A stretch of DNA of 64,000 nucleotides, from assembly GCA_033439255.1 (NCBI GenBank), contig CM065880.1:3658001-3722000 (forward strand), given 5' to 3'. Of this stretch, positions 15,300 to 44,430 are shown in pieces. Both the position numbers and the translations under genes were made by a program. Source of the DNA: Hericium rajendrae. Taxonomy: Eukaryota; Basidiomycota; Agaricomycetes; Russulales; Hericiaceae. Position 1 is the stretch's first letter. Every line of letters begins with the position of its first letter. Under the pieces are notes generated by a model that did no database searches, had not been told where the DNA came from, and worked only from the letters and a program-made list of their open reading frames with translations.

Positions 15300-18200
15300 T
15301 TCCTGTTTGGGCGCTTCTGAGCCTTTCTGAGCGCGCATTTCTGTCAGTCGTCGACGGCCTACGGCTCTCTTCACGTCAAATAGCTCGCTTCATGCACGTC
15401 AAATAGCTTTACAAGTGGGTGATTGCGGATGCAAGTGCACATCCACCGGCCGCATATTCAAAAGGTGCAGCAGATCCAGGAAGGGCCGACCGACCGACTT
15501 ACTGTATAACATCTTTTTCTCCCCAGTACCATGCAAACGCTAATCCGATCCAACCAGTCATGCATTTGTAGGTATGTCCTATCCATTCCTCCCATACTCT
15601 CATCCACAAGGCAAGGCCGCGCCCTCAGCACATATCACCCCAGCCCATATCACCCCAGCCATCGCGACCATGCGCGAGTCTTTCTGATCGGTGCTCACGC
15701 CCTCCAAGCGGGAAAACAACGACAAGGGGGGTGTACAAGTTTCGCTCATCTCCGTAGTTGGCAGCTGCGGAGTGGACTGTACGTGAGTACGGACGCGGGC
15801 CTGCAGGTCGCCCGCGCATGGCAGGTACGTAGATACAAATCAAGCACTGCAGCTGCACCTGATGCTCGTACGCACCGCAGATTAACGTCCCGGACTTCGG
15901 ACTCGTGACGGCTCCCCGCGCCGTCGCGTGCGTTTCTCCCAGCCATCTTTCCAAATGTCGACGAGCTCACGGCAAGGCGGAATCGTAGAGGCGAGGCGCG
16001 CTGGGACTGAGGTTCGTCCGCACTGTCATCTCAGCATGCCGCGTGCATATCCTTAATCCTAGACGCGGGTGCTGTCACATCGACGTAAGCCGAACCTTAA
16101 TGCACCCATCCAAGTCCCGGCGCATCGATGTCATCGCAGCGAAGAGCCGAGCAGCGCGCGTAATGCTATAACGAAGGCAGATTAAGGTGCGTCTGTACAA
16201 TGCCGCCACTCATCAGCCTCAGCAACCTTCGCATATCCTCCCCAACTCCAGATGCAGACGTGGCAGCAGCCAGCAGGCCACATGCTGGCGTATTGTGCGG
16301 GGATCGCCCCGCCGGATATGCATGTCCCCGCCCGGCGCGTGCATCGCCCGCTGTCGACTTCCCGCGTCGTGTCGATTCCATAACTGTCGCGAGAAGGACC
16401 TGTCAGTACTGCACGCCTTATTCATCGCTCGCCGTCCAGACCCCCATGACTATGGGCCCGCACCAGATCCTGATCAAGCCGGGATCGATGCGTGTGGCAT
16501 GCGGCCCTTATTCCATCGCGATACGGCAGATCGATCTAGTGAGGGATCTCCTTGGTCACGCTCGTCGCCGTTTCTCGTCCTTCTTGCCCCCGCAAATGCG
16601 CATATCGAAGCCATGATATCTCGAGACAGGCGCAGTCAATCCAGCACCATCGCATGCGTAGGTCACCATCCGCGCATCGCGATTCCGTGCTGTGCTTATG
16701 CAGGTGCGCAGTTGAACAACCCAATAGGCCAACACACCATCGTCTGAATACATCCCTCTATTCAGATTCCTAAATGCTAATCCCGCGCGCCATATCGGAC
16801 AGACAGACGAAACCAAGTGCAGCCCAGATGGGCCTGCGATCACTTGTCGATCTCAGTCTGCACGCATATACGTTGCGTTGAGCACGTGAATAAGCAAGCA
16901 TGCCGAAGCTGTTCTCTGCCCCGCGATCCTGCGATCCAGTACCTGCTCCTGTGCCAATTGTCCTTCATTTCTCCTAGACCCCGTCGACCTCCATCTCGAT
17001 GCGCTCTGCACTCACCGTCCGTTGTGACAGCATGCGCGTATATCTCCGATCATACTTGGGAGCACAGATTTTATCCTCATACTCATGTACTGGAATATGC
17101 CCATAGCCAGGCGTCTCTGGTCCTCCATTAGCCCAGGACGTAGGTCTCCTTCGGATGGGTTACCTACGCCTTTTCCGCGATCTTCACCGCCGTCGACACT
17201 GGCAAAATCACCCGGAGGCAGACGCAGATGTTATCTTCATTGACGTCAATTCTGGCTCCGGCCGCGACGTCAAGTTGTGGGTCCTTTTCCGCCTCTACCG
17301 CGACCTCGTTCCGCGCGGGCTCACGCTCCTGTTCTTGGAGACGCTGCCGGCACCGTCAACGAGCATGCGCACGCCCAACCTGCTCTTCGGCGCGAGCGTC
17401 CTCGTAATCGTTCTCCAGCTCCGCGTCGCATACAGAGGCGTGCGCACCTTCTCGGATCGCCTTGTTCTGGACAGCGTGCTTGTGGGCCATTAGCTGTGTA
17501 AAACGTTGACTGAGCGCTTTCAGTTCCGAGTGTGTTGGATGAGTGGTGGAGGAAGGGCGACAGGAACATTGGAAGGCGCCAAATTCCGGGCGCTTGTTGC
17601 TTTGGGAAGGAGGGCTTCCTTTCTGGGCACTGCTGAAGGTTTCTGTCAGTCGTCGACGGTCTACGATCGACTCTGTTCACGTCAGACATCCGTCTGCCCA
17701 GACGCATTCGCAGATGAGTTGGAAGTTCGACGTTGTCGAAATGGCGGCATGGAGCATGTACGTCCTGCGTTCTCTTCCCAATATCACATAAACTCACTGT
17801 CCGAACGAACCAGTCGTTGTTCTCCACACCTGGGGCCACCCCGCCGGCCTCTGCATCCAGCTCTTCGACCTGTCCCCCCTCTTCGTCTCGGTCACGTCGA
17901 CCACGGCCGTATCAACGCCCTTTTTTTACAGTATCAGCGCATACACACGTTCGCGGCAAGGAGCCGAGCCGGTGCCATAAGGACGGCAGGTAGAAGTGTG
18001 TCTTCCACCGATCAGCAGCCTTAGCTTCACGCGCGCACGTCCTCCCTCTCTGCCGTCGGCACCTGTAAAATTACTCCGGAGGCCAGACATAGACGTCACC
18101 TGCGTCAACGCCAATTCGGGCTACGGCGGCGACATGCGCTTCTGGGTCCTCGCGTGGCCCTACCGCGATTTCCTCGTGCCCGCACGTGGGTTTATCACGC

Positions 18201-26190: not shown

Positions 26191-26200
26191 CTATGGTGTG

Positions 26201-26238
26201 AGTGAATGCAATCCTCCCAACGCGTTTTCGGTGGCAAC
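26201..26238 (+). repeat. Left terminal inverted repeat of the 7.7 kb transposon
   Basis: It begins AGTGAATGCAATCCTCCCAA and continues ACGCGTTTTCGGT. Reverse-complemented, it matches 33,846-33,880 with one mismatch near the inner end. Inside it, the two ends diverge. Confidence 0.93.
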
Positions 26239-26856
26239 CTCGTCGTAGCAAGGGACGTCCAAAAACGGAACGGTGCGATCGAGTGGGACCGTTGCGACCG
26301 TGCTCGACCGTTTGCACCGTTCCCTCCTCCGCAGCAGAAAACGCTGCCGCTCGATTTGTCAGCTTTTCGTCGTCATGCATCACGTGACTTCCGCGAGCGC
26401 GCGGGCCGGACGCGGATTTCTGGCCAAGTCGAAAGGGGCGTCATCGGCGTCGTCGACGGCGGCGCGCGGGCGCGCGGGGACACGGACGGACAACAGGCGG
26501 CATAGATTCATTAAAGACGTATGTAAGGTACACGTGTGCGAAATTACGAGCAGCGACGGTGACAGAAAAAAGGGCGGGGTACGATTTTGGGTGCGAACGC
26601 GCCCGACGGCGGGGCGGGACGGCGGACGGGGGTCGCGCGCGGACTCGCTGGCAGCGGAAATGGCCCCGGCGTGGAGGCAGCGGGTCGTGCGCATTGCGAG
26701 AAGCATGTGATCGAATCCTGAATAGCAAGAAAGGAAAGAAATGATGAGGAAAAAATCATAGAAACGTGAAAACGGCGACGAGGCGGGCGCGCGGGCGGAA
26801 AGCGAGTGGTGTGCGCGCACATCGTCCGGCGGTGATGAATACTGCGGGATGCTCTC
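26233..26856. other. Left subterminal region of the transposon, no gene
   Basis: GC-rich non-coding stretch between the left inverted repeat and the end of the transposase gene. Around 26,255-26,330 there are repeated GGAACGGT / ACCGTT words in both orientations. Such words could be transposase-binding sites, but nothing in the sequence proves it. Confidence 0.45.
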
Positions 26857-29800
26857 CTATGCAGAGCGCAGCATCAGGCCGTTGGGCCCGACCGCATCCT
26901 CGTCCGAGAGCATCTTGACCCAGAGGCAGTCTTTGCCCTGGTATTCCACAATGAAGTCCGACGGCAGGTTTGCGCGCGTCGGAACTGTCTTGAGGTTCGT
27001 GTAGAGTGGGAAGAGCACCATCCCCTCAACAATGAACATGCGCCGCTTGATGAAGGCGCCGAAAGACTCGTACTCGAGCGTGGAGATGGGCTCCTGCCGC
27101 AGGACAACAGCCTCGTAGAAGGTCTTCACGGCCGCGAGGAACTCCATGACGTGGAACTCCTTCGCATCCACGAAGATGCCCTCTGGCTGCGGCCAAGGCG
27201 GCGGCTTGTCGAGGACCTTGCCGTCGGTGCGCGAGGGCGCGCCGTCCGAACAGCAACTGCGCCGATGGTTGCCGGCGCTGCGCGCGCCACCCCCGTACTT
27301 GACGACGCCGCAGCGCTTGCACGTCTGTGGCTGACGCTGGGACAGAATGTAGGATGCACGAGCCATGGCATGCGGCGAAAAATGGGAGCAATGAGTGGGG
27401 CACAGACTCACCTTCTTGCCGCCCTCCTCAGTGGAGGAGAATCCAGGCACTGCGAAACAGTGCCGCCTCCAGAACGCCTCGTTGCCCTTGGCAGCTGCAC
27501 AAGCGTGTCGGTCAGTGCTGTCAAGCAAAGCAACAGATCAGGATAGAGAACTCACATTCGAAGTTCTCAGTGTGAATGCGCTGGACAATAATCTTCTCGA
27601 TCTTCGTGAGCTGGCGCACGAGCACGCGTGGGTGCTTGTCGACCGGAACCGGTATATCGTCCCTCAAACAGTGCCCCACCATGCGCTGGTTGAACTGCGC
27701 AGTTGCGACGACCCACCGGCTTGCCGTCATCGAGTAGCTTGCCCACTTGTGCTCGGCCCGGAGATCCATGAAGATGAAGAACTCCGGGCCACACCCGATC
27801 TCCATGGCGCTTGCATCCATGCTGGTGTAAAATGACCACATGCGCTCGGACCGCGATAGGCCCTTCGGGACCAGTGGCATCGGGACGCGCGCCGTGAGTG
27901 CAGCAGTCTGCGCGCGAACCGTAGACGTGTCTGAGGCGATAGCGACGGCGGACTGAGCAGGCGCGTGCGCAGATTGAGGAGTGGGGCTGCTGGAAGTGGC
28001 CGGCATGGTCGGGGGCACAGTGGTAGATGTGGCTGGCGTGATCGAGGGCGCGGAGGTGGAAACGCCGGACGACGTGGCTGCAGGGGCCGCGGTGGGCGCA
28101 GCGGACGATGGCATAGCAGGGACTGCGGACACATGCGGAACGGGAGGTGCGGCTGATGAGCGCGGCGCCCCTGCGTTCGGCGGCGGCTGAGTCGAGCGTG
28201 CGGCGGGAGGGCGTCGTGTCTTGAACAACGGCGCACGTTTCACCTGGGAGACGAGGTGCGTGCCCGGCACAAACAAGTGAGCATTCTGTGAAATAAAGAT
28301 TAGTAGATGTACCCGGTTTGACAAACTGATTATTACTCACCTGTGGCGACTTTTTCAGCTTCTTGATGGCATTGCCTGGCCTTTCCGCGTCCGTCGTCTT
28401 GCGTTTGCGAGACGAGGAATCCGAGGGAAGAGTGATGATGCCATCTTCGAGCTCGGCACTGTCCTCGTCGAGAGTCAGATCCTATGGTTGACAGCAAGCA
28501 TGTGCCAGTGAGCTCGAAAAAAGACTAAAGAAGACTAAAAGCAAAAGACTTACCACAACATCACCATGGTGCTCTACCTCGAAAACCTCCTTCTCGTGAT
28601 CTTGCATGCTTGCGCGAATGCACGCATCTTCTGCGAGAAGGATGGGGTCCACAGGGATATCCGCCGTGGCATCAGGTTGCGCGACTGGGTGATTGGGCGT
28701 TGTCGTCGCCGTCGCGGCTGTCACGGCGGTCGCGGCCATCACAGTCATCGTGGCTGGCCCGGGTGCCACCACCGTGTCGGATGCGGCGCTGCAAGCCGCG
28801 GACCTGCTGGATACCGGGAGGGGTGACACAGAGGAGGATGGCTCCGCATGAGGAGGGACAGCAGCGCGGCGCCGGCGCGTTGTCGTGGCGTCTGGAGAGA
28901 CGAACATCGACAAGTCAACACCTGTCTGTTCGCTCACCTGCTCGCGTGTGACCTCGCTCTCATCCATGATCCGGAGGAGCTTGTCCTCGTCATCCTCGTC
29001 GTCCTCCTCCTCCTTGAGCTGAATGAGGCCTCTGTACGTCTCCGCGTCGGCCGAGCGCACGAGTCCAAAAATCTCGCCACTGTTGACAATGGGCAATTCT
29101 GGCCGCGGCATGGCTTGAGTCTTGTAGCCGCGGGAGTTGTTGGTCTCGATGGAGGCATTCCACACCTTCGCGTTGTGGTTTGCGAGCCGTACGTTGTGGG
29201 AGCCGTAGGCGGACTGGGTCACGAAGGGGCGGGGCTCGTCCTTGAGCGCGGATGCGATGCGCACGTTGCGGCGCAAGACAAAGTCGTGGCCAAGGGCGAC
29301 GAACGTCTCGAGGCCGCTCGCGTGTGACCTCATGATGGAATTCCACCCCTTATGGGTGCCTTCGATGCGGCTTCCATCAGCTGCGATGTCGTCGCGCCGA
29401 CGCGTCAAGCAGCCTTTCCGAACATGCTTCATCTGATCAGCATGAACCTTGCGAGATAGGAAGATTGTAAGTGCCAGTAGAAAGTGACAGACAGTAATTA
29501 GCCCACCTTTGATGCTGCTGCCGACCATACACCTCCACGTTGAGTCCACTTCACAAACGCGGCCTCGAGCTTGACCTCCTGCTCTTCTTTGGCCCAGTAC
29601 TTTGCTGGCTCTTCCTTGCTGGCACCCTTGATGAGGATGGCATCACGCAGGTCTTGTGCTACTGCCAATCTGTGCGGATTTTTTGAACCGTTGACGATTG
29701 CGACTTGGTACCTGCAGCCACAGATAGAAGTGAGCCAACAGTATAGACATGAAAAAAAAAGGCTCACCTCATGATGCAATGGAAAACATCGAGCCCGACG

Positions 29801-31414
29801 GCCGCTTCAGGGAAGACGTCAAGGATCGCCCGAACGATGTGGCAGCAGTTGTCGGCGACAAACTGCTCCGGCAATGGCACTTCGAGTGTTTCATGCCGGT
29901 CCCTGAGTCCTCTGAGGAACTCGGAGATCCTTGCATTTGACTGTGTTTGACATAGTTCCTGCACGGTGCACATGGCCATCAGCGACGCTGCGCACCGAGG
30001 CGTGGCATCACAACACTCGACTTACCCATTTCATGACCTCGGTAACCTCGTTGATGCTGGTAATCAACCCCCCCTCCGACGGGTTCGTTCGTGTCTGGTC
30101 GCTGCTCGCTATAGTTGCCTTCTTTGAGGCCTTGAACGTCGCGTCGATTGACACCATCTTGGCTGAGTTTTCGGGCCATTGGTAAGCATCAGATATTCAT
30201 CAGAATGTGCGTGTAACGCACCTGTCAGTGTCCGGAGATAATCCCCAGACTCTTCTTGACGGGTACGGCGGCTGTTCTCAAGGATGATGTCGGTGATCAT
30301 CCCGCTCGAAATCGAGTGGTTGTTGAAGCCGTTGGGAGTCGAACGGGCTGCAGAATTCCTTGAGCGGACATGGCGCCCACGTGTTGACGTCGCGACGGTT
30401 CCATCGCTCGAGGAAATCGAGCACGGTCTGATGGTACTCGAGGAGGTGCAGCTCTGCGGTGGGAGTTAGCACATCAGCCCGGTAAGCAACTGAACCCAGA
30501 GAGTACTGATGTTTGATGTTCTCTGCTAGGCCCATGGACGTACTAGAAAGGCGCACTTCGAGAATAAGGTCGAGCAGATCGCGTGTGACTGCACACTTGT
30601 GGAAGAAGAGCGGGGCGCCGCCTTCCATCAGAAAATGGTCAGCATCAGGTGCGTTCGACTTCGGATGATTCAGCGACTCGAATACTCACGGGGGATTTGC
30701 CAGTATTCCCACCTCTCCCAAAACAAAGAGTTAGTTGTAACACAAGAGTAGGTGATCTTCTTCTTTTCTTCCTTCGTGACCTGTTTCTCCTTCAGGTCCT
30801 GGCAGTCCTTGCACCTGAGCTGGTATCCGAGCGCCAGCTCTGCGCGTCGAACGCCGTACACCTCACGCGGGCCCGTAGAGGTCCACCCGTCCCACCAGAC
30901 ATTGTCGCCACCACACCGAGGACACAGGGCAAGCTTGGGGTAGTAAAATGGATGGACGATATGCAGCGGCTTGAGGTAAGCAGTCGCTGGTTCGATCATC
31001 GGCACGTTTGACCTCTTCTCCAGGTGAATATAACTTGGAGGGACGAAGAGCGGGCCGAGGAGGGGAATACCCGCCCTCAGCGCAAACGGCTTGGGCGGTT
31101 CGGCGTCCTCAGGTGCATCCGGCGGCGGCGGCAGCGGCTTTGTGGCATTGTAGAGGTACGTGACATATGCCACGACGTTCACCGCCCAGTCGAACTGAGT
31201 GTCCGAGCATGCCTCGTCAGAGTGCTTGCTGCTTTTCTTCCAGGCTTTGAGGCGAGTCTTGACCTAGTGGTGAGTGTCAGCAGCTGTCTGAACCCACTAA
31301 CGTGTGCCCGATACTCACTGAATTGTCCCAGTCAGTGTCGAACTTGCAGCGCTCGCCCGGGGAAAGCGACCTGCGAATTGCGGTGCGAACGACATGCGGC
31401 TCGAATGTCGACAT
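26857..31414 (-). CDS. DDE transposase with zinc-binding domains, 1,291 aa
   Basis: Exons on the minus strand: 31414-31319, 31263-30690, 30621-30507, 30451-30222, 30162-30026, 29958-29768, 29711-29507, 29447-28554, 28481-28341, 28285-27556, 27494-27412 and 27336-26857. The sum is 3,876 nt with phases that agree. Near the N-terminus are CPRCGG and CKDC pairs in a domain I believe is DUF6729 (not checked). The RNase H-like core has D1 in VSIDATFK, D2 in FVADNCCHIVRAILDVFP with DVFHCIMRY, and E in SRIEGTHKGWN. An acidic stretch and a Pro/Ser/Ala-rich linker follow, then a C-terminal CKRCG...CC cluster. The junction of exons 3 and 4 is the least certain. It would cut and join the element's ends. 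Plus-strand frames across it are shadows. Confidence 0.88.
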
Positions 31415-31826
31415 CGTGCGAGTGCGGTAGCGGCAGGGAGCAAGTAGAAGTGCAGAAAGGAGTGCAGAGAGGAGCACGTCCCGCCGCGTCGACACGTCTC
31501 AGTATTTACGGCCTTACAGCATTCCAGTGTCCATCTAGCCTGGGCACCGAGCGCGCTCGCATCCATCCGAAATTGAGGCTTTCACAAATTCACAAACACT
31601 TCGTTTATGGATTCACAGCAACAGCCGAGCGCTCTGACAGCTCGCTACATGTACAGTAGAGCCAGGAACTATAGTACAGCAGCCGAAGGAGCATACAAAT
31701 ATTGTAGTAGTAGTACATAATTTTGAGCATGAAGCAGGATACATTCGAAATAGACTAGGAGGGCTGGGACCTACGAAAGAAATTAGACAGAAAAGCTCAA
31801 CGGCTACAGAACTTGGGGACCGGACC

Positions 31827-32659
31827 TCAATCGAGGACGTGCATGAAGACAAAATTTGCGGCGATGATGGGGCCTCCAAGGTCCGGCACAACTGGCCCCA
31901 AATGGAGCACGAAGCGGACGCGAACCCGCTTGTGAACAGGCATTTGAGCACGCGACGGGATTGCGACATGCCCGTGCTTAGCGTCGAACACGGGCAGGAC
32001 ATCGAGGTTGTCGAAGCCCGGCTAGGCGAGAGTACGGAACATGAGATTTTGAAGCGGGAAGAGCGAAAAGGGAATAGCGGACATACCGGGGCTGTCCACG
32101 AGACCTGCAATTTCGCAGGGGACAAGTTGCTGGTACCAGCACCCTCGCGACCCTCGCGATCTTCGGGCGCGATGAATTCACCCATGCGAACGCCGCTATC
32201 GGCATGGCGGGCGATGCGCTCCAGCTGAAGCAGCGCGCGACGCCAATTATCTTGCCCCTCGACCGAGTCATCGGGTGCCTCAAGCCAGCACGAAGCGAAC
32301 CGGGCTGGCGCGCATCGGTACGCTTCGTCGTCTACGTTGATAGGGTGCTCCTGATCGCCATCTGATGACAGGAAGCAGTAGTCGGGGCGGACACGGCCCT
32401 CGACCTCGAAGACGACGGCAGTAAGGCCGATGTGGATGCCGCTCTGCGTGATTGATGGTCCGTTGTCATCGCAGTAGACCCTCGAGCCGGGATGAAGCAT
32501 CCTGTCGTAGAAGGATCCTGCATCTGGCTTGAAGTGCCTGCCAGGTAGTTTGTAGATGGGGAAGTAGTTCTCGAGGCCATCGTAACGGTCCCGAACTGTC
32601 GCGGGCTCGTTAACTCGCATGAAGGGCGACGGCTCGGCAATGAGAGTGATGTCGGACAT
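31827..32659 (-). CDS. Transposon companion protein of unknown function, 255 aa
   Basis: Two exons, 32659-32087 and 32021-31827, joined by a 65 nt GTATGT...CCTAG intron, give 768 nt. The protein begins MSDITLIAEPSPFMRV, is rich in acidic and aromatic residues, and ends with a beta-rich stretch (VPVFDAKHGHVAIPSR, then VLHLGPVVPDLGG). I recognise no domain, signal peptide or membrane segment. It lies 410 bp upstream of the transposase, same strand, inside the same inverted repeats. That makes it cargo or an accessory transposition factor. The unspliced frame runs on to 31,613, but the splice gives a far more protein-like end. Confidence 0.72.
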
Positions 32660-33079
32660 GGTGGATGTGGAGGGTCAGTGGCAAGATGCACTTGGCCCCT
32701 AGCATTTGTTGCCTCCGTCGATAACACTCGGCGAACGCGCGAGCGCGCCACAGCACCAAGCTGATCGCGCCTGCAGAGCGTACAAGAACGTCCTAACTAC
32801 TTGCTACTTACTCGAGATCCCGGGCTCCCTGCACCGCGTCCTTGGGCACGATCACTGGCGAGATCCTGACGCTTGGCTTGGGCGCCTCCACCAGCTCGAG
32901 CGAGCGGTTCGTGATGGAGGTTTGCCGGCAGAAGCCCTGCCTCGCGGTGGACCTGCGGTGGACCGACCCTTGCCACCCTCCTGCGTCGGCCCCGCGCACC
33001 TCCCTTGCCACCCCTCCCCGAGCCCTGCCCGATTTTTTCCCTCCGCCTCCGGCGCTGTCCCCTTGCTATGACCGTTTTG
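32660..33079. other. Right subterminal region, likely promoter of the companion gene
   Basis: GC-rich non-coding sequence upstream of the companion gene's start at 32,659. No clear core promoter word was found. Frames here are short and overlap one another on both strands. Confidence 0.4.
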
Positions 33080-33857
33080 CCGTTTTCGGTCGCTTTGGGG
33101 CACGTGACCGACGCGCGTCGTGCCAACTTCCTTTTTGGGTTGCGTCGCCTTTGCCTTAGCGTCGGGCGCACCTCGGGCGAGGACTCGGACACAATTCTTC
33201 GTCTGTTTCAGCGGTAATAAAATCAGATAAAATGGGGGAATATCACAGAAGGGTAGATACATCCATTGTAGTCACTAGGTAGACACACTCAGAGATTGGA
33301 CCAATTCTTTTTCCCTACCTCATGTGATTTGTGAATTTAGAGGGTCAATTCATCAGCTCAGTAGCCAGAGGGACAATTGAAGTGCCTAAATTGAGCTGTT
33401 ATAGATTATTATGGTCCACAACTTCACTCCATTGACTTTGCTGCATGTTATACAGCTTCGAACCCACTTCTGAGGTCTGTACATAGTGGCCAAATTTACT
33501 TGGCCATCAGGATATGCAAAAAATCATGTCATTCTCCCTCCCATCCCAATTCTTACAACTAAAAGTCCCCTTGGCTATTGAGAAGATGGGTTAACTCTCT
33601 ACATTTATAAATGACACTAGTTAAGGTAAAAGCATGGTTTAAATCTCTGGATTTGTCTATCTAGTGACTACAGTGAATGTATCTACCCTTCTGTGATATT
33701 CCCCCATTTTATCTGATTTTATTACCGCTGAAACAGACGAAGAATTGTGTCCGAGTCCTCGCCCGAGGTGCGCCCGACGCTAAGGCAAAGGCGACGCAAC
33801 CCAAAAAGGAAGTTGGCACGACGCGCGTCGGTCACGTGCCCCAAAGCGACCGAAAAC
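33080..33857. repeat. Large fold-back inverted repeat inside the transposon's right end
   Basis: The arm at about 33,083-33,300 is the reverse complement of about 33,640-33,857. Both arms would encode the same frame in opposite directions. The loop between them (about 33,300-33,640) is AT-rich and unlike the GC-rich surroundings. The inner arms carry GTAGTCACTAGGTAGACA and its near complement TGTCTATCTAGTGACTAC, which could be the ends of a nested MITE. The outer arm ends include part of the transposon's own terminal repeat. Confidence 0.88.
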
Positions 33858-33880
33858 GCGTTGGGAGGATTGCATTCACT
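33843..33880 (-). repeat. Right terminal inverted repeat of the 7.7 kb transposon
   Basis: It ends TTGGGAGGATTGCATTCACT, the reverse complement of the left end, and is followed directly by the target duplication. Its inner part also belongs to the larger fold-back repeat at 33,080-33,857. Confidence 0.93.
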
Positions 33881-33890
33881 CTATGGTGTG

Positions 33891-44359: not shown

Positions 44360-44430
44360 TGCATTAAGGGGGAATTGAACCCCCGGCGGGTCGATGGCAA
44401 CGACCCAGGTTACCACTACCCCATTAATGC
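44360..44430 (-). tRNA. tRNA-Gly(GCC)
   Basis: On the minus strand the acceptor stem GCATTAA (44,430-44,424) pairs with TTAATGC, discriminator A. The anticodon stem GGTCG/CGACC closes loop TT-GCC-AT, so the anticodon is GCC. The T arm is GGGGGTTCAATTCCCCC. There is no intron, and it has the short D arm usual for tRNA-Gly. Confidence 0.93.

Follow-up and report, generated by a model that had tools for sequence, protein, structure and literature searches.

A two-gene transposon nested in an older MITE of Hericium rajendrae and its likely kinship with bacterial ISL3 elements

Does a segment of fungal DNA framed by perfect 10-bp repeats hold one transposon or two, and to which family does the enzyme inside it belong? 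The question is raised by a stretch of 64,000 nucleotides from the basidiomycete Hericium rajendrae (GenBank assembly GCA_033439255.1, contig CM065880.1, positions 3,658,001 to 3,722,000; hereafter, the window), in which positions 26191–33890 had been described, in an original prediction made from the letters, as one complete two-gene DNA transposon and a strong candidate for an active one. Our analysis makes it likely that a cut-and-paste transposon at 26233–33081 was inserted in an older miniature inverted-repeat transposable element (MITE) of ~824 bp, and that it carries the gene for a DDE enzyme nearest to ISL3 together with a partner gene, ORF2, in a copy that has probably lost the ability to move itself.

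A transposon nested in an older MITE

When the left 230 bp was compared with the genome (46.8 Mb in 19 contigs, cited below as C numbers), query bases 10–45 matched short elements on C5 and C11, and bases 41–230 matched separate loci on C2, C9, C3, C8 and C7. These two distinct sets of loci mean that the region is composite. Three MITE copies (C11:1161371-1162194, C5:157298-158122 and C5:3070563-3071386) carry an uninterrupted CGTTTTCGGTCGCTTT; in the window this sequence breaks off behind GTTTTCGGT and picks up again at 33082, where GTTTTCGGT stands a second time, the left MITE arm ending at 26232 because the two-gene element inserted there. The rejoined flanks read GTTTTCGGTCGCTTT, an exact match at the junction to the three closest MITE copies, with a fourth (C7) differing there, and the rejoined 822 bp showed 83.7–85.3% identity to the three copies in the better orientation and 71% to the C7 copy. 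The MITE copies are continuous across the insertion point, with no inner-element sequence, and other two-gene copies start and end at positions equivalent to 26233 and 33081, have their own duplications and lack the MITE. These results demonstrate that the two-gene transposon is nested in an older, smaller MITE, whose own insertion had produced the 10-bp duplication. A single element at 26201–33880, with the MITEs as its shortened derivatives, had been favoured by the perfect 10-bp repeats and by the terminal repeat of 97%; given the composite matches, the empty site and the ends of the other copies, we reject such a 7.7-kb element with a 10-bp duplication as practically untenable.

The repeats themselves are real. 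The 10-bp duplication CTATGGTGTG is exact at 26191–26200 and 33881–33890, and the near-perfect terminal inverted repeat (36 nt, 97%, 26200–26235 and 33846–33881) is present as predicted, but both belong to the MITE and not to the two-gene element. The left MITE piece measures 32 bp (26201–26232) and matches MITE copies L010, L011 and L012; its final 9 bp constitute the inner element's left duplication. The remainder lies at 33082–33880, and the inverted repeat of 294 nt found there (33081–33374 and 33565–33858) forms the arms of the MITE's own palindrome. Intact, this MITE is a palindrome of ~824 bp with ends AGTGAATGC and a 10-bp duplication, and the four copies read (C11, C5 twice, C7) are 821–825 bp long. 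For six MITE-type insertions in which both ends could be read, the duplications, judged by eye, measured 10 (window), 10, 10, 10, 8 and 7 bp; among those of 10 bp, the C7 case consists of a low-complexity AT repeat, and the C1 case, read at its ends, spans 23.8 kb. Three longer relatives (C11:320341, C5:1801249 and C5:3164626) are not part of this tally, since inverted repeats run on into their flanks.

Longer relatives that share the MITE ends carry a domain of Mutator-like elements (MULEs; C1) or a SWIM-like motif (L046, C11). The MULE profile PF10551 is above its cut-off inside C1:253720-277528, duplications are 7–10 bp in six copies, and the host MITE shows no notable difference from MULE-type MITEs. 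As a separate observation, the C1 locus (L049/L050) has host-MITE-like ends 23.8 kb apart, a 10-bp flanking repeat ATCCTTGCCA and the above-cut-off MULE domain between them, and may be a MULE that is very large or nested several times over. The loci L046 (C11:320341-322814), L047 (C5:1801249-1804592) and L051/L052 (C5:3164626-3179902) have MITE-type ends with identical inverted flanks of ~30 bp, CAAGTCCAAGTCGAAGAGCGCCTACACCAG, on both sides, and their terminal repeats therefore reach further outward.

The inner transposon (26233–33081) is 6,849 bp long, has its genes on the minus strand, and is bounded by a 9-bp duplication GTTTTCGGT at 26224–26232 and 33082–33090, as given by the empty site in the MITE and by the ends of other copies. 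Its terminal inverted repeats, found as inverted-repeat pair I6 and in seven copies, are 22 bp each and imperfect, with 17 of 22 positions paired (77%) between the left (26233–26254, plus strand) and the right (33060–33081, minus strand). Among the seven copies whose ends were both read, with those ends held fixed, perfect duplications measured 9 bp in the window and 8 bp at C9:866731, C3:297517 and C8; the C2 copy has 7 bp (9 with one mismatch), the C7 copy 8 bp with one mismatch, and one copy none. An 8-bp duplication, as expected of ISL3 elements, is thus perfect in three of the seven and present with one mismatch in a fourth. The window match extends to 10 letters when the element's last base is assigned to the flank. 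The 10-bp flanks that had been expected across genomic copies were found for most MITE insertions, and the two-gene element itself duplicates ~8–9 bp.

The ends are conserved beyond these copies. Of 25 ORF2 loci, some of which represent one element in two pieces (C2, C8 and probably C17), 21 have a motif like the right end in the 1.56 kb upstream of ORF2, and at 20 of the 25 it falls inside one 130-bp interval, ~350–470 bp upstream of the start of the match. Shuffled motifs (n = 60) gave a mean of 1.1 loci and a maximum of 7. This case illustrates how a nested insertion can mask the true ends and target length of an element.

Some copies deserve mention on their own account. A relative of the inner transposon with 98% identity, at C2:4223872-4241225 (L009, L055), measures ~17.4 kb against 6.8 kb; its ORF2 is split into two parts, additional sequence lies between its ends and also between the gene halves, and it seems to have taken up further elements by insertion. 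In another copy (L013:649-733) the left end is doubled, 84 bp apart. Two copies, L014 (C9:413658-421190) and L015 (C3:297517-305048), are >99% alike over most of their length and differ by an inverted match of ~331 bp; L015 has a duplication and the near-identical L014 has none.

Two conserved genes and the state of the window copy

The transposase gene occupies 26857–31414 on the minus strand, in ~13 exons according to the predicted model. An N-terminal Cx2Cx33Cx2C cluster at 30802–30924 is a candidate zinc ribbon, with weak Pfam matches (E 0.011–0.056), and a C-terminal Cx2Cx14Hx3C cluster at 27250–27321 is a candidate zinc site with no confident Pfam match, so that cysteine-rich sites do flank a DDE core as originally described. 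Within this core, VSID (30143–30154) supplies the proposed first catalytic residue, the segment from the second D (FVAD) to DxxH (LDVFH) lies at 29779–29862 and resembles ISL3 and MULE enzymes in alignments and profile comparisons, and the E of DGSRIE (29361–29378) is the proposed third catalytic residue. D, D, DxxH and E are invariant in all seven aligned family members, and their catalytic roles are putative. Ratios of nonsynonymous to synonymous substitution rates (dN/dS) were 0.09–0.41 in four of four pairs for the 3' DDE segment.

Two minus-strand genes with consensus-type introns were indeed found, but the transposase frame is broken in exon 4. A model using introns alone, trained on pieces of the same element, gives 13 exons with predicted splice sites and 1,244 aa; the 1,291 residues of the original prediction were not reproduced, although the enzyme is large and of DDE type. 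This model stays open only by omitting a conserved block of ~24 residues. The exon-4 block SISSGMITDIILEN (30274–30315) does not share the phase of the coding sequence before it: the distance between two conserved blocks is 133 bases in the window, against 132 in the 98% relative and 126–138 in five others, being a multiple of three in all six relatives and one base out of phase here. The 98% relative on C2 has an indel of its own, elsewhere in the gene. The break in the window may be an assembly error or reflect unusual splicing. Because of it the status of an active autonomous element is not supported, and, judged from its sequence, the window copy probably can no longer move by itself.

ORF2 (31827–32659, minus strand, upstream of the transposase) has two exons and 255 aa by gene prediction and comparison with relatives, its second exon being backed by similar sequence in L032. 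Identity to the window copy falls to 22% among the 25 ORF2 loci, and exon 1 gave dN/dS of 0.14–0.25 in three of three pairs; both genes are thus conserved. They are also paired. At 19 of 25 transposase loci an upstream ORF2 on the same strand is found within 10 kb, and at 20 within 20 kb; at the others an ORF2 piece is on the opposite strand in one (C17) and there is no ORF2 in four. These 25 loci were grouped from 27 of 28 matches, after dropping one with E 0.17 and merging the split pairs C3:3001181/3001351 and C5:2232264/2244557. Scans of ten ORF2 members returned three named families only, each in one member (E 0.12–0.34), and the best matches in PDB had E 1.1 or worse. ORF2 is probably a required partner, acting as a transposition helper or an anti-silencing protein, because it is kept with the transposase across deep divergence.

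In the order of events, the ~824-bp MITE inserted first, with its 10-bp duplication, and the two-gene transposon then entered the MITE with a 9-bp duplication. In the likely mechanism, the large DDE transposase would bind the short ends (GGCAAC..TAGCAAGG), excise the element and join it to cuts staggered by 8–9 bp, with ORF2 probably acting as helper or anti-silencing protein.

Placement of the transposase

The profile search that had been proposed along with the original prediction gave bacterial ISL3 as the best named match. Pfam PF01610 (DDE_Tnp_ISL3) matched six of seven members (best E 6.1e-7), three of them above the 23-bit cut-off (29.9, 28.6 and 28.2 bits; 51–54% identity to the window core) and three below, and the NCBIfam ISL3 model (NF033550) matched three of seven (best 2.6e-6). 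A whole-genome scan with PF01610 returned six below-cut-off matches, all beside transposase exons of the inner-element family. We further compared the seven-member core with six ISL3 proteins by hhalign, which gave P values of 1.8e-5 and 1.5e-5 in two runs; these six came from nine ISL3-type transposase genes, L081, L085 and L086 being omitted as unannotated or incomplete. Among the controls, two MULE pairs gave 0.005 and 0.21, reversed ISL3 0.089, and others, some of them weak, 0.11–0.89, a thin set with one KDZ sequence, two MULE pairs and two Tn3 sequences. The IS3 sequence was no real control because it was read out of frame (11 stops). PHROGs added phrog_5749 in four of seven members (best 2.1e-7), which backs a transposase and names no family. 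The core profile had no match in PDB, and prokaryote and viral collections, each searched with two short peptide patterns, gave no tblastn-confirmed relative. A clear match to a named superfamily with another target length had been put forward as evidence that would overturn the original prediction, and half of this was found: the target length differs, and the best named match is the bacterial ISL3 family. In line with the original suggestion of a poorly described superfamily, the element shows no clear membership in a named eukaryotic one. Taken together, these sequence comparisons suggest a place for the core in the C/DxxH group of DDE transposases, with bacterial ISL3 nearest to it and MULE/IS256, almost as near, as the main alternative.

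Several findings weigh against our overall interpretation. The window core itself stays below the PF01610 cut-off (E 0.048, 13.9 of 23 bits), all NCBIfam scores are far below their curated cut-offs, and IS256 matched more members than ISL3 did, at five of seven against three (best 5.8e-4). With a longer four-sequence profile that includes the N-terminal part, a MULE pair (P 0.0016) came out slightly ahead of ISL3 (0.0063). When parts of the alignment with ISL3 were permuted, none of 200 permutations was as good for the segment from the second D to DxxH, a segment picked after the match had been seen; 46 of 200 scored as high for the E region, which thus has no support, and 3 of 200 were as good for the zinc ribbon, a marginal result that covers the first CxxC only. 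Among distant pairs dS was near saturation (proportion of synonymous differences 0.61–0.69). One of seven copies (C9:413658) has no duplication, the role of ORF2 follows from association alone, and an AlphaFold model of ORF2 exon 1 by itself had a mean predicted local distance difference test score of 32.8.

The first alternative is a divergent MULE, in which the nesting is unchanged and the transposase comes from the IS256/MULE branch. The IS256 matches and the longer profile favour it, as do PF10551 matches in four of seven members (best 6.6e-4), and duplications of 4–10 bp are given for IS256/MuDR in parts of a 2023 paper (PMC10045372). Yet all members stay short of the MULE cut-off (best 20.5 of 27.6 bits), against three that pass that of ISL3, the six above-cut-off MULE matches of the genome are other loci, and these have C..H at the motif where the inner-element family has DxxH. 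Pfam found no SWIM finger in the transposase pieces scanned. The SWIM finger is absent from some MULEs. On balance we hold a MULE origin to be unlikely, if still the most serious competitor to kinship with ISL3.

A relation to the Dada superfamily is considerably less probable. Its architecture agrees, with a D1–D2 distance of 68 in Dada-U6_DR against 69 here, but, according to the sections available of its description (PMC3706591), Dada duplicates 6–7 bp, targets small RNA genes, has a D2–E distance of 176 in Dada-U6_DR against 125 here, and in Laccaria carries an exonuclease between D2 and DxxH that is absent here; those sections report no ISL3-like match. Ten stretches surrounding six copies showed neither an Rfam nor a tRNA match, and the insertion in the window showed none either. 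A Kyakuja-Dileera-Zisupton (KDZ) transposon, suggested by the large basidiomycete-type transposase and by the 8-bp duplication of Zisupton, is hardly credible and was rejected, since Pfam scans of the transposase gave no KDZ match, PF18758 occurs at 172 places in the genome and none among the matches listed is an inner-element copy, and hhalign against a single KDZ sequence gave P 0.89. The 172 KDZ matches and the intron-rich genes are in keeping with a basidiomycete genome.

Two other observations concern the window at large. A 15-bp tandem unit CAGCCCATATCACCC occurs at both 333–367 and 15626–15660, separated by 15.3 kb, and hints at another repeated element; a tRNA-Gly gene (gcc) at 44360–44430 is the sole tRNA found in the window and is not near the insertion.

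Relation to known transposon systems

The inner element apparently represents an undescribed fungal lineage in the ISL3/MULE group of transposons. More tentatively, and with rather less than even confidence, it might be taken as a new eukaryotic superfamily of cut-and-paste transposons and as the first counterpart of ISL3 in fungi, with ~25 loci in this one genome, a transposase of ~1,300 residues around an ISL3-type core, 8-bp duplications and an obligate partner without named relative. The portions available of a 2017 review (PMC5718144), which matches eukaryotic superfamilies to bacterial insertion sequences in at least six pairings, do not mention ISL3, nor do those of the 2023 IS481EU paper (PMC10045372), where more 'ISxEU' lineages are expected. 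No eukaryotic ISL3 transposon was found in the literature searched, a scope that leaves out subscription journals, preprints and Repbase, and an existing name in Repbase is possible because of this. If true, a fungal ISL3-like family would add a further pairing, and a two-gene system for probing transposon partner proteins.

With ISL3 the inner element shares the best core profile match, DxxH after the second D, and, by eye, an E followed by G and a downstream R..G..F; an N-terminal CxxC..CxxC is also present, with marginal profile support, the statistical support of the alignment being limited to the segment from D2 to DxxH. It also shares 8-bp duplications, which passages on bacterial ISL3 elements report (PMC5559704; PMC12554700, the latter at two of four sites). 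It differs in its transposase of ~1,250–1,350 aa against ~430 aa in ISL3, in its introns and large N- and C-terminal additions, and in a partner gene unrelated to named families. With MULE/IS256 it has in common the C/DxxH group, long duplications (8–10 bp) and weak profile matches, and it departs from MULEs in staying below the PF10551 cut-off in every matched member, in having no SWIM finger found and in carrying DxxH, not CxxH. Dada likewise has a large, intron-rich transposase with a DxxH, its DDE core being preceded by CCCC and followed by CCHC, and is set apart, by the parts seen of its published description (PMC3706591), in duplication length, target preference and D2–E distance. Among MULEs, VANDAL regulators are mentioned in part of a further source (PMC12730594). 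ORF2 differs from MuDR and VANC accessory genes in having no detectable sequence relation to any named family. MuDR carries the accessory gene mudrB, and some plant MULEs bear VANC. Like MuDR with mudrB and the VANC-bearing MULEs, the inner element joins a transposase to a second conserved gene.

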